Origin: Streptosporangiaceae bacterium
Lineage (GTDB): Bacteria > Actinomycetota > Actinomycetes > Streptosporangiales > Streptosporangiaceae
NCBI GenBank assembly: GCA_030040155.1
Contig: JASHUG010000116.1
Location: forward strand, 1-33,766
Reading direction: 5' to 3'
Length of the DNA: 33,766 nt
The first letter of the stretch is position 1; each line of letters begins with the position of its first letter. Shown in pieces: positions 26,780 to 32,218 of this stretch. A program made the position numbers and the translations under genes. Under the pieces are notes generated by a model. That model did not search any database. It was given only the letters and a program-made list of their open reading frames with translations, and was not told the origin of the DNA.

Positions 26780-28213
26780 ATGTTATCGCTATGGGCAAGG
26801 GCGGCTCCCAGCGCCGTTACCGCAGTTCATTGCCGTAAGGGGAGGGGCCCGCTCCGTCATCTGCGGTTAGCTGGCATCCCAGCGCTAGCCGCATTCAGTC
26901 TGCTCTGGTTCCAGGTGCCGACGGCGCCAGCCGCAGCGGCGCGTGTCGCCCAGCCGCACGTGGTCGCGCCAATCCCGGACGTAGCCGGCCCTGGAAGCAT
27001 CGCTGGTCAGCTGCCCGCTCCCATCTCGACGACCCAGTGCGAGGAGCAACTCGGGATCAGGTGCTACTCCCCGCTGCAATACCACGTCGCCTACGATCTC
27101 AATCGCCTCTACGGACAAGGAATCACGGGCGCGGGCGAGACGATCCTCATTGTCGATTCGTACGGATCGCCGACCATCCGCAATGATGTTGCGACTTTCG
27201 ACGCCGAGTTCGGCCTGCCGCCGGTCAACCTCACCATTGACCAGTTCGGCGCGATCCCGCCTTACGATCCGACGAACTCAACGATGATCGGCTGGGCCAT
27301 CGAGACGACGCTGGACGTGGAGTACGCGCACGCGATCGCGCCCGGTGCGAACATCGTGCTGGCCGAGACCCCGGTTGCCGAAGAAGAGGGAACCAGCGGC
27401 TTCCCGCAGATGATGAGCGCCGAGGAGACGCTGATCAACCGCGGCGTCCCCGATGTGATATCGCAGAGCTTCGGCGCCACCGAGAACACGTTCCCCGGCT
27501 TCAGCTCGGGCAACTACTCGAGCCTGCTTGACCTGCGCTACGCGTTCAAGGACGCTCTCCGGCACCACGTCACAGTGCTGGCTGCCGCGGGCGACTACGG
27601 CGCGACCAACCTTGAGTCGAACGGGTCGACGCTCTATCCGTACCCGGTCAACTCCTGGCCGTCGACCGACCCGCTCGTGACCTCCGTCGGCGGATCGGAG
27701 CTCACGCTTGACAACTACGGCAACCGGCTGGCGCCAGACACTGTCTGGAACGACAGCGCGGGAGCCGGGGGCGGTGGCCTCTCGGCCGTCTTCCAGCGCC
27801 CGTGGTTCCAGAATGGGGTCACGAACGTCGTTGGCGATAGCCGCGGTACCCCGGACATCTCGATGAGTGCGGCGGCAACTGCGGGCTGCTGGATCTACGT
27901 CTCGTTCGCGCCTTTCGGTCCGGTGTGGGGCGTCGAGGGCGGCACGTCAGAGGCGACGCCGATGTTCGCTGGGATCGTCGCGCTCGCCGACCAGCTCGCC
28001 GGGCACCGGCTCGGCGACATCAACCCGGCGCTCTACCTGCTCGGGGCGCTCAGCGAGCGCGGTGACAGGACGGGCATCGTGGACATCACGTCCGGCAACA
28101 ACTCCTTCGGGGGCGTGACTGGCTACACCGCCGGCCCTGGCTATGACCTTGCCAGCGGCTGGGGGACGGTCGACGCCTATCAGTTCGTGCACGCGCTGGC
28201 CAGGATCGGCTAG
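26780..28213 (+). CDS. S53 family peptidase (sedolisin/kumamolisin-like), secreted
   Basis: RBS AAGGAG at 26770-26775; signal-like N-terminus; EtTLDvEYAHAIAPGANIVLAE (Glu/Asp), GGTSEATPMFAG (Ser), DITSG...YTAGPGYDLASGWGT (Ca site). Confidence 0.92.
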   Translation: MLSLWARAAPSAVTAVHCRKGRGPLRHLRLAGIPALAAFSLLWFQVPTAPAAAARVAQPHVVAPIPDVAGPGSIAGQLPAPISTTQCEEQLGIRCYSPLQYHVAYDLNRLYGQGITGAGETILIVDSYGSPTIRNDVATFDAEFGLPPVNLTIDQFGAIPPYDPTNSTMIGWAIETTLDVEYAHAIAPGANIVLAETPVAEEEGTSGFPQMMSAEETLINRGVPDVISQSFGATENTFPGFSSGNYSSLLDLRYAFKDALRHHVTVLAAAGDYGATNLESNGSTLYPYPVNSWPSTDPLVTSVGGSELTLDNYGNRLAPDTVWNDSAGAGGGGLSAVFQRPWFQNGVTNVVGDSRGTPDISMSAAATAGCWIYVSFAPFGPVWGVEGGTSEATPMFAGIVALADQLAGHRLGDINPALYLLGALSERGDRTGIVDITSGNNSFGGVTGYTAGPGYDLASGWGTVDAYQFVHALARIG

Positions 28214-28991: not shown

Positions 28992-29945
28992 TCAGATGGA
29001 CGCCGGCTCCGGGGCCGGGGCCTGCTCGACCTGAGGCGCGGGAGCCGTGCTGCTCTGGCTGGCCAGGTATTCGGCCATGGTGCGCTCACGGCCGTAGTGC
29101 CGTTTCATCCACAGGTAGGTGAGGAAGGCGGCGGGCCCGAACAGCGACTGCGCGGGGACGAGTTCGTCGAGGTTGGCGTTGGTGAAGTTGAACAAGAACG
29201 GGACGAACGCTGTCGCGAAGCCACCGAAGACCACGGTGACGGCGCCCGCTATCGTGGCTGCCCACTTGCCGTAGGCCTTGTACGCGGCCACGAAGAACAG
29301 CGAGTAGACGAGCAGGTCACCGAGGCCGAGGGCGTAGTCGACTCGGCCGAATCGCATGCCTATCACCGGGGTGAGCGGATGCGTAATGTAGCGCGCGATC
29401 AGCCTGCCGGTCAGCGGATAGTACGAGGCGAAAACGATGTCGTAGCACGCGAGTCCGAGCGACATCCAGGCGACGTGCCGCAGCTTCATCCCGCCCTGCA
29501 AGTACAGGTTGCACACGGCGATCGCGCCGAGCAGCACCACGACGCTCTGCTGGGCGTACCACCAGTCCCATCCGGCGACGGTGCCCATGATGTGATTGCT
29601 CGACCAGATATTCAGGCCGAACAGCACCCCGATCCCCAGCCAGATGCCCACCTGGCCGAGCAGGGGTGCGTAGCCGATGTACAGGGCAGAGGCGAACGTA
29701 ACAAGCAGAATGCAGGTGACCGCCGTATCAGGCAGCCAGCCGTACACGAACGGCAGGACTCCGATGACGATCAGCAGGATCACGACGTCGCGAGTGTTGA
29801 ACGCCCCGACTGGCGGCCGCACCATGCGCACGTACCTGAAATAAGCCAGCGCGCCCGAGCAGACCACGATCACGCCGGTCAGGATCACGCAGAACAGAGT
29901 GAGGCTTTCTTCCCACTGGGGTATCGGGAAAATTACGACCGGCAT
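28992..29945 (-). CDS. Presenilin/signal-peptide-peptidase-like (GxGD) intramembrane aspartyl protease
   Basis: 317 aa from ATG 29945; about nine hydrophobic segments; putative TM6 SLGLACYDIVFASYY (YD), putative TM7 YALGLGDLLVYSLFF (GxGD), putative TM9 LFGPAAFLTYL (PAL-like). Confidence 0.75.
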   Translation of the reverse strand: MPVVIFPIPQWEESLTLFCVILTGVIVVCSGALAYFRYVRMVRPPVGAFNTRDVVILLIVIGVLPFVYGWLPDTAVTCILLVTFASALYIGYAPLLGQVGIWLGIGVLFGLNIWSSNHIMGTVAGWDWWYAQQSVVVLLGAIAVCNLYLQGGMKLRHVAWMSLGLACYDIVFASYYPLTGRLIARYITHPLTPVIGMRFGRVDYALGLGDLLVYSLFFVAAYKAYGKWAATIAGAVTVVFGGFATAFVPFLFNFTNANLDELVPAQSLFGPAAFLTYLWMKRHYGRERTMAEYLASQSSTAPAPQVEQAPAPEPASI

Positions 29946-29946
29946 G

Positions 29947-31380
29947 TCATGCTCCGACGAGTGCGTGAGGGCTGGCGAACGTGGTTTCGAGCATGTCGCT
30001 GCGCGTATGGCGAAGCGAGACCGCCTGGTCGTCGCCGACGATGTCCAGGTCGACGTCCAGTCCGGCCGCCGCGAAGTGGCGGACGGCCTCGGCCTGGCTG
30101 TAACCAGCGATAGCGCTGGCCGGCAGGGTGAGCCGGATCCGGCCGTCACAGGCTGCCGCGCGGTATCGGGCGGGCCAGGGTTCGGCAGGCAGCGACTCGA
30201 TCACCTCGATGAACTGCCGGGACGTGACGATCTCACCACCTGGCATCCGCAGCAGATGGTCGGCCTTGCCGAGGACCAGGCTCGTCGCGGGGACGGTGGC
30301 CAGCTCGCAGTGTAGGGGCTCGTCGGGCAGGCACCGCGCGACGTCACGGGTGTCGTAGCGCAGAACGGGCGTGCAGTCCCGGTACGGGAAGTAGGGGGTG
30401 ATCACGAGGGTGCCGAGCGCCCCCGGCGCGGCAGGCTCGCCGGTGTGCAGGTCGACTAGCTCGGTGAGCCCCAGGTTCGTGTCGTGGTGCATGTGTCCCT
30501 GGCTGCAGGGACGCCCGGTGATCGGGACGATCTCGGTCATGCTGTAGGGGTCCTCGACGTGCGGGACGCCGAACATCCCTGATGCCGCCCGGACCAGGCT
30601 CGGCGAGAGTACCTCACCCCCCGACACGAGGCGGCGCAGACGGAAGTCGCCGGCGCCCATTCCGGCGCGCCGGGCCGCCTTCACGAGTTCGGCAAGATAG
30701 CTGGGGTTGGTCAGCAGGATCGTGGCGCCGCCCTCGGCCAGGCTTTCCAGCGCTGTCTCAGGAGGCACGATGCCGAGCAGACGACACCCGGCTCCGGCCA
30801 GCCGGCAGGCGTTGGCCGCCTGGTGCAGGGCCACGGTGGAGCGCGAGCTCAGGTTCACCTGCATGACATCGCCGGGCCGAAGCTCGCCTCGCAGTACCGA
30901 GGCCAGCGCGCCGAGCGCAGGCCACAGTTCCATCTCGTAGCGCGACAGCCACACCTCCGTGGGGCGCCCCGTGGTGCCGGTGGTGCGGGTGGCCAGGTAG
31001 GCCTGGACGTCGGTGCAGCGGAAGTCTCCTGGCCGTTCGGTCAGGTCCGCCTTGACCGTGACTGGGATCGCCCGCAGCCCGGCTACGTCGAGCTTGGCCG
31101 GGTCGATCTGGGCGGAGCTGAAGAGGCGCGCATAGAACGGTGACTGTGCGCCGAGCCTGACCGCGGTCCGGCGCAGGCTGCCATTCGTGAACTCGAGCCG
31201 GTCCTCCGGGTTGGTCGTCGGTCCTTCGACAAGCTCGGCGGCGTCCGCGCCCGCCTCGCCGAACTCGGCCAGGGTGGCGAGGACGTCGCCGACCAGCCGT
31301 TCGACGTTGCGCGGGTCAAGCCGCCGCCGCAGGGCAATGCCCAGCGCCAGCCGGAACTGCCGTACGCCTGTCTCGAACAT
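29947..31380 (-). CDS. PaaK-like adenylate-forming enzyme (phenylacetate-CoA ligase family)
   Basis: TRTTGTTGRPTEVWLS P-loop, LLTNPSYLAELV, LRRLVSGGEVLSPSL, YSMTEIVPI, LRYDTRDVA, LGKADHLLRMPGGEIV; stop 1 nt upstream of the presenilin-like ATG. Confidence 0.9.
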   Translation of the reverse strand: MFETGVRQFRLALGIALRRRLDPRNVERLVGDVLATLAEFGEAGADAAELVEGPTTNPEDRLEFTNGSLRRTAVRLGAQSPFYARLFSSAQIDPAKLDVAGLRAIPVTVKADLTERPGDFRCTDVQAYLATRTTGTTGRPTEVWLSRYEMELWPALGALASVLRGELRPGDVMQVNLSSRSTVALHQAANACRLAGAGCRLLGIVPPETALESLAEGGATILLTNPSYLAELVKAARRAGMGAGDFRLRRLVSGGEVLSPSLVRAASGMFGVPHVEDPYSMTEIVPITGRPCSQGHMHHDTNLGLTELVDLHTGEPAAPGALGTLVITPYFPYRDCTPVLRYDTRDVARCLPDEPLHCELATVPATSLVLGKADHLLRMPGGEIVTSRQFIEVIESLPAEPWPARYRAAACDGRIRLTLPASAIAGYSQAEAVRHFAAAGLDVDLDIVGDDQAVSLRHTRSDMLETTFASPHALVGA

Positions 31381-31504: not shown

Positions 31505-31591
31505 TTAGACGCTCTCGGCCGCGGCGGCGCTGAACAGCACCGCGCTGAGCGAGCCCAGCACGTAACGCAGGTGCTTGACGGAAGAACGCAT
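31505..31591 (-). CDS. Small hydrophobic peptide ORF, 28 aa: MRSSVKHLRYVLGSLSAVLFSAAAAESV
   Basis: Absent from the supplied ORF track (too short). GGAGGG RBS 5 nt before ATG at 31591; TAA stop; basic N-terminus, hydrophobic core, same strand as the flanking genes. Confidence 0.6.
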   Translation of the reverse strand: MRSSVKHLRYVLGSLSAVLFSAAAAESV

Positions 31592-31663
31592 GGTTTCCCT
31601 CCTTCCCGGATACTCGGCCAATGTGTTGTGGGGTTGGTCAGTGGGTTGCGGGACGGGTCACGG

Positions 31664-32065
31664 TCAGGGGAGGACGAGGACCGTGAGGTTCATCTCGGGG
31701 TGGAGCCCGCAGGTCACGTGGAACGTGCCCGGCGTCAGCCACGGGCCGGTCCTGTAGACCTCGTTCATTTGCATCAGGTGGAAGCCTCGCACTGGCTCGC
31801 CGCGCACCGGGGTGGTGATGAGCCCGTTCTGACCTGGCCCGATGTCGTGGATGTTTTTCGAGCTGTCCACGAACGTGAGGTACTGGCCGCGGTGGATGGT
31901 CACGGAGTCCAGCGTGAAGTCCATGAAGGACATGCCCACGGTATTGGGCGGAGCCGGCTTGGGACTCCCGACGAACACGGCGGGCACGAATATTCCCGCC
32001 AGAATGGGAGGAACGACAAGAAGAATGCGGGGGACTCGGGAGAGAATGCTACCTAATCTAGCCAC
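31664..32065 (-). CDS. Membrane-anchored cupredoxin (type 1 copper, amicyanin-like loop)
   Basis: GTG start 32065 with AGAGGAAA upstream; N-terminal TM RILLVVPPILAGIFVPAVFVG; ligands NIHDIG and HVTCGLHPEM (C-x2-H-x2-M). Confidence 0.8.
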   Translation of the reverse strand: MARLGSILSRVPRILLVVPPILAGIFVPAVFVGSPKPAPPNTVGMSFMDFTLDSVTIHRGQYLTFVDSSKNIHDIGPGQNGLITTPVRGEPVRGFHLMQMNEVYRTGPWLTPGTFHVTCGLHPEMNLTVLVLP

Positions 32066-32218
32066 CGGTTTCCTCTCGCCAGCAGCGCTCCTCGGCAGAG
32101 GACGACTGTAGATCCATCGGCCGCTTCCCCTCAGACGTCCTTGTCCTTGTTGCCTCGAACGCGACCAGCCGTCGGCTAGCAAGCGCACTCTACGTCGCCG
32201 TTTTTAGCTCGTAAATAG

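Follow-up and report, generated by a model that had tools for sequence, protein, structure and literature searches.

Proteases of the presenilin fold have been described from eukaryotes and from archaea; for one archaeal member, MCMJR1, no natural substrates are known (PMC2947513). Those of the SPP/SPPL type (family A22B) need type II segments, with the N-terminus cytosolic, and most of them favour very short ectodomains, tail-anchored proteins included (PMC7366577). Type IV prepilin peptidases and FlaK are also di-aspartyl enzymes with a GxGD-type motif, and their aspartates lie in soluble regions, several transmembrane segments (TMs) apart (PMC2947513).

The bacterial locus considered here lies in a window of 33,766 nts, the whole stretch of DNA that was analysed, which belongs to an assembly of 5.6 Mb in 508 contigs. 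The locus encodes a putative intramembrane aspartyl protease, a new variant within an established fold class, and the established prokaryotic profile has no matches in the group to which the locus belongs. The best fold match of the encoded protein is to SPP/SPPL (human SPPL2a, 9k92 and 9k93), and the YD and GxGD motifs are common to both. However, identity over the structural alignments is just 13–16%, there is no Pfam A22B match, the PAL motif has PAQ, PLL or PVL as its counterpart in the bacterial branch, and the bacterial protease is without a PA domain and comes in genetic linkage with a ligase and a micropeptide. With presenilin-1 (PS1) of gamma-secretase (A22A) it has in common the fold, a TM6a-like helix, strands before TM7 and the LGLGD motif (KLGLGDF in PS1), but it is without the long TM6–TM7 loop, its topology is probably opposite, its score with the Pfam Presenilin profile is low (7.6 bits) and there is no sign of partner subunits for it. 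Archaeal PSH/MCMJR1 (4hyg, 4y6k; PMC2947513) is, like it, a single-polypeptide prokaryotic protein of presenilin fold with a non-canonical PAL. In contrast, PF06550, the profile of that archaeal SPP family, is absent from the window's genome and finds nothing in 248 sampled genomes of the phylum (two archaeal controls were detected). The prepilin peptidases and FlaK have a different fold and are absent among the Foldseek matches.

The protease and its predicted fold

The protease is encoded on the minus strand by an open reading frame of 317 codons (28992–29945, with its ATG at 29945 and its stop at 28992–28994). The initial annotation, which did not state the strand, had read this frame as a presenilin-like protein with nine TMs, and the frame is present where it was placed, as are the three segments on which that reading drew: 'ACYDIVF' (Y168-D169, TM6), YALGLGDLLVYSLF (GLGD207–210, TM7) and 'GPAAFLTYL'. 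Homologues were found at 83, 75, 58, 41 and about 25–31% identity, and Streptomyces and Embleya plasmids carry three further ones. Among 29 aligned homologues, whose lowest pairwise identity is 21%, Y168-D169 is invariant throughout, and G207, G209 and D210 do not vary in any of the 28 that extend so far (the one left out is cut off at a contig end). R43, P44, G47, D53, P65, Y68 and Q150 are likewise invariant. Conservation centred on both aspartates at such divergence fits the prediction of a catalytic dyad, and the gene is genuine and conserved. RefSeq annotates one member as no more than a 'hypothetical protein' and its neighbour as a 'phenylacetate--CoA ligase family protein'. In a divergent clade (L018, L019, L021, L022, L047 and relatives) the protease has an additional C-terminal soluble domain with the motif W-x-A-x-H-E-G-x-V-x-G-x-G-x-S-P-G-x-A-R-R and a weak DUF5678 match (best E 0.001), a domain that the window clade is without.

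At the level of sequence profiles, the assignment to A22 made by the initial annotation falls short of curated standards. The best Pfam match of the window protease is Presenilin, at 7.6 bits against a cut-off of 34.3 bits (E = 1.9), no other A22 profile scores on it, and none of 20 homologues passes the Pfam A22 cut-offs (PF01080 Presenilin, PF06550 SPP and Peptidase_A22B). Pfam, NCBIfam and PHROGs gave nothing above their cut-offs for the protease, and PDB sequence searches with it and with two profiles were empty or returned noise. When the protease was compared with human PS1 by hhalign, just the GLGD patch was aligned (probability 2.6%, P 0.018; an unrelated permease from the window gave P 0.62 as control), and because of this restriction sequence-level homology to PS1 is not claimed.

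Structure prediction gives a different result. An AlphaFold2 model of the window protein was made from eight sequences (pLDDT 78, pTM 0.80) and, when it was compared with the PDB by Foldseek, ranks 1–12 were filled exclusively by chains of SPPL2a or presenilin-1 (best E 1.9e-5, prob 1.00) and were followed by the unrelated P2Y14 receptor (E 0.32, prob 0.20). A second model, of L047, a homologue sharing 25% identity with the window protein, was made from twenty sequences, with plasmid-derived homologues left out of the alignment, and reached a mean pLDDT of 90. Nine TM helices are present in it, with a short TM6a-like helix following TM6 and a pair of strands directly before TM7, and its ranks 1–16 were presenilin-1, SPPL2a and archaeal PSH, with an unrelated protein at rank 17 (prob 0.20). 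The window model has the same core, with TM3 and TM4 fused into one long helix, and it is the higher-confidence homologue model that supports the nine TMs originally claimed. Across both models the A22 matches have Foldseek prob 0.99–1.00 and TM 0.46–0.64, and YD and GxGD fall within or at the start of modelled TM6 and TM7. The comparison with known structures thus extends to PS1 for both models and to PSH for that of L047, and these matches to A22 (clan AD) alone, together with the invariant YD and GxGD, bear out the A22-like reading. As modelled, the protease clearly has the presenilin/SPP fold and, because Pfam and PDB sequence profiles miss it despite the fold match, it is on these predictions a divergent, unannotated bacterial branch of that fold, outside the curated sequence families.

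The position of the PAL element was reconsidered on the window model. Modelled TM9 comprises residues 265–284, and therefore the proline at its start is P264 (in V-P264-A-Q). On this model the PAL counterpart is most likely P264-A265-Q266, and the earlier proposal of a PAL altered to PAA, in GPAA, was probably misplaced. Seven residues past P264 comes another conserved proline, P271 of GPAA, and the divergent clade has P-L-L-T-x-L-G-P, with identical proline spacing. In human SPP a second proline is likewise seven residues on, near the start of TM9, and P-x-x with a second proline would be a further likeness to SPP/SPPL; an SPP TM9 fragment used as a PDB query matched no chain. The proline at the PAL position is kept in most homologues and the triplet is degenerate (PAQ, PLL, PVL or PAM, with AFL in two). 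Archaeal MCMJR1 also does without a canonical PAL and has PPL (PMC2947513).

The ligase, the micropeptide and their linkage

Directly upstream of the protease gene is that of an AMP-forming ligase of the ANL superfamily (477 aa; minus strand, 29947–31380), PaaK/phenylacetate-CoA-ligase-like. In the window 1 nt separates the ligase stop codon from the protease ATG, and in many homologous loci the two genes overlap by 4 nts. The ligase matches Pfam AMP-binding (PF00501) above cut-off (1.4e-10), its closest PDB entries are phenylacetate-CoA ligases (4r1l, E 4e-20) and it carries a family-specific N-terminal extension; the core adenylation motifs TTGT.G, Y..TE and RY.T.D are conserved in 29 sequences. 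It is under every NCBIfam equivalog cut-off, and because of this no specific enzyme name is given to it. One homologue has a weak match to LuxE acyl-protein synthetase, under the cut-off.

Upstream of the ligase is a short, unannotated open reading frame (minus strand, 31505–31591) for a micropeptide of 28 aa, MRSSVKHLRYVLGSLSAVLFSAAAAESV, which is the proposed substrate of the protease. Its ATG is preceded, at a distance of 6 nts, by a near-perfect Shine Dalgarno sequence, AAGGAGG (minus strand, 31598–31604). The window micropeptide has a basic N-terminus, a single short hydrophobic segment and almost no tail. Reading of the region upstream of the ligase, locus by locus, revealed the micropeptides (among the others are MVKHYIKYAFSTLTAAMFASMV, from a Streptomyces plasmid, and MVKTVRRYAKYAISTLSTAVFVLNG), which across loci have 22–31 aa, about 15 hydrophobic residues and a tail of 3–12 residues. 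A profile made from them matches upstream of the ligase in 28 of the 29 intact loci, with the micropeptide ending 56–125 nts ahead of the point where the matched ligase domain begins. Pfam and NCBIfam have no match for the micropeptide. Its core is roughly [KR]-Y-x-x-[SG]-x-[LM]-[STA]-x-[AV]-x-F, the Y and F being invariant in 25 sequences. This core is under purifying selection (pS 0.30 versus pN 0.044 in 8 pairs). At one locus (L043, G690:C25) protease and ligase are intact with no recognisable micropeptide upstream, the micropeptide there being either lost, moved or too divergent.

Wherever both genes are intact (29 loci), the ligase directly precedes the protease, mostly with a gap of 1 nt or an overlap of 4 nts, and the full order of micropeptide, then ligase, then protease recurs in 28 of these loci. 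The initial annotation was right about the protease but overlooked the ligase and the micropeptide adjoining it. Co-occurrence is strict: the identical 8 of 151 genomes of the family are positive for protease, micropeptide and ligase, and the 143 others are negative for all three. (The micropeptide profile was built partly from loci in the genomes searched, and the independent part of this result is the absence from the other 143.) The genome G117 has every gene of the trio twice, in two complete divergent cassettes (L009/L017 and L012/L019), each with its own micropeptide.

The protease is patchily distributed: searches found it in 8 of 151 genomes at family level, 21 of 300 at order level and 1 of 398 at phylum level. 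Phylum- and class-wide searches yielded almost no further members, the class match, in G858, being weak and C-terminal. Genes outside the trio vary between lineages, and therefore the three move together as one block, plasmids of Streptomyces and Embleya included. The patchiness, together with broken copies in Nonomuraea and Geodermatophilaceae, suggests horizontal movement of a self-contained cassette. In Nonomuraea gerenzanensis (L058, NZ_LT559118.1; also L056) the cassette is decayed, with the ligase and protease frames broken and the micropeptide absent. A Geodermatophilaceae MAG (L004, JACCTY010000077.1) has a frame-broken protease homologue with no ligase or micropeptide nearby, which could be due to decay or to an assembly error.

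Upstream of the micropeptide in the window is a gene for a small membrane-anchored protein (minus strand, 31664–32188) with a cupredoxin-like C-G-L-H-P-E-M motif, read by eye, and no Pfam match. It is clade-specific and, because it is present only in the five closest loci, is placed outside the minimal cassette. Comparison of neighbours across loci gave no dedicated exporter or immunity gene conserved beside the cassette. Apparent 'conserved neighbour' clusters opposite the ligase were judged from their coordinates to be antisense ORF artefacts. Also near the cassette in the window is a secreted subtilase-type serine protease (plus strand, 26780–28213; PF00082, E 2e-7), with homologues close to L002 and at the L014 edge. 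At the far end, a large protein running off the window edge (plus strand, 1–2406) has repeated near-identical 'NQS..LS.LGRREDALAAI.EA' units resembling TPR-type tandem repeats.

Proposed function and rival readings

On balance it is fairly probable that the three genes form a mobile peptide-maturation cassette, in which the protease cuts the micropeptide within the membrane and the ligase modifies the peptide. The micropeptide would enter the membrane as little more than a type II or tail-anchored TM segment, its basic N-terminus staying in the cytoplasm, and the protease, oriented N-out/C-in as SPP is, would cleave it inside the membrane by means of D169 and D210. The ligase may adenylate a carboxylate and couple it to the micropeptide, in which case either an acyl or aryl acid would be attached to the peptide, or the peptide's own C-terminus would be joined to a partner. 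The end product might be a small modified peptide, e.g. a signal, an antibiotic or a natural product. Counting against this reading are the lack of any significant sequence-level match to A22, the degenerate PAL triplet, L043 with no recognisable micropeptide and the frame-broken L004, as well as the chance that the conserved micro-ORF is regulatory.

The micropeptide is proposed as a dedicated substrate because its layout, that of a type II or tail-anchored segment with a very short tail, matches the substrate preference of SPP/SPPL, and because the loop charges of the protease are SPP-like. The family-mean loop charge is positive after TM1, TM5 and TM9 and negative before TM9. This is consistent with an SPP-like N-out/C-in topology, the positive-inside argument from sequence being approximate; the TM6–TM7 loop of the window protease also carries arginines, against a simple positive-inside reading.

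Cutting of a small peptide within the membrane has a bacterial counterpart in the enterococcal pheromones, which are released by the intramembrane protease Eep. The present locus resembles peptide-pheromone and RiPP cassettes in having a tiny hydrophobic precursor, an intramembrane protease and a tailoring enzyme. However, the protease here is aspartyl and of presenilin fold, whereas Eep is a site-2 metalloprotease, and the micropeptide is free-standing and not a lipoprotein signal; here, too, the ligase is AMP-forming and no dedicated exporter is seen. The short precursor-like gene linked to enzymes, by which RiPP and peptide-pheromone systems are recognised, is present as linkage, and the processing itself is presumed. 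That the locus represents a new class of ribosomal peptide product or pheromone in actinomycetes, made by a presenilin-fold protease, a dedicated 22–31-residue substrate and a peptide-modifying adenylate-forming ligase, has about even chances of being correct.

The main rival accepts an active protease of presenilin/SPP fold and takes the micropeptide for a regulatory leader, i.e. an upstream ORF or arrest-type membrane-insertion sensor, governing how the ligase and the protease are translated. Among nascent chains, short hydrophobic ones are known to serve as insertion sensors, and the peptide ORF is located as a leader would be, at nearly every locus 56–125 nts upstream of the matched ligase domain. 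It is nevertheless unlikely, since conservation spans the whole hydrophobic segment with its invariant Y and F, and does not end in a stalling motif, and since it tracks the protease and ligase family. Co-occurrence is moreover one-to-one, the duplicated set included, and a peptide with the shape of an SPP substrate is more simply matched to the SPP-like protease next to it. The micropeptide could alternatively be a small membrane-active toxin or bacteriocin that ligase and protease inactivate or mature. Short cationic hydrophobic peptides do look like membrane-active ones and the cassette is patchy, with plasmid-borne copies too, but the lack of a conserved adjoining exporter or immunity gene, and of a PADLOC match for either protease or ligase, makes this quite unlikely.

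Distinctly improbable is a housekeeping role, in which a bacterial signal-peptide peptidase would clear remnant signal peptides, with the ligase and micropeptide incidental. The SPP-like fold and probable topology would suit such an enzyme, but its sparse distribution in family, order and phylum and the near-absolute linkage to ligase and micropeptide do not. The chance that the protein is an unrelated permease or other polytopic protein, with YD and GxGD fortuitous, is very slight indeed. The sub-threshold character of all A22 family sequence matches could be cited for it; against it stand the two motifs, which do not vary among 29 divergent homologues, and the exclusive matching of two models to A22 folds. 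An unrelated-permease identity is effectively refuted by the Foldseek results of both models.

Meaning for presenilins and for actinomycetes

A literature search, with most subscription journals outside its scope, found no such bacterial presenilin-type family and no such cassette. The peptide-maturation reading points to a bacterial presenilin-fold branch that standard profiles miss and that is encoded beside its apparent own substrate. The protease is distantly related to the enzyme that cuts within membranes and has a part in Alzheimer's disease. If the reading is true, this protease would be a bacterial presenilin reduced to a single subunit, whose natural substrate is known, and a simple model of how presenilins choose and cut helices; the two cassettes of G117 would be handy material for enzyme–peptide specificity. 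It would also bring to light a class of actinomycete ribosomal peptides so short, at 22–31 codons per gene, that annotation pipelines overlook them.
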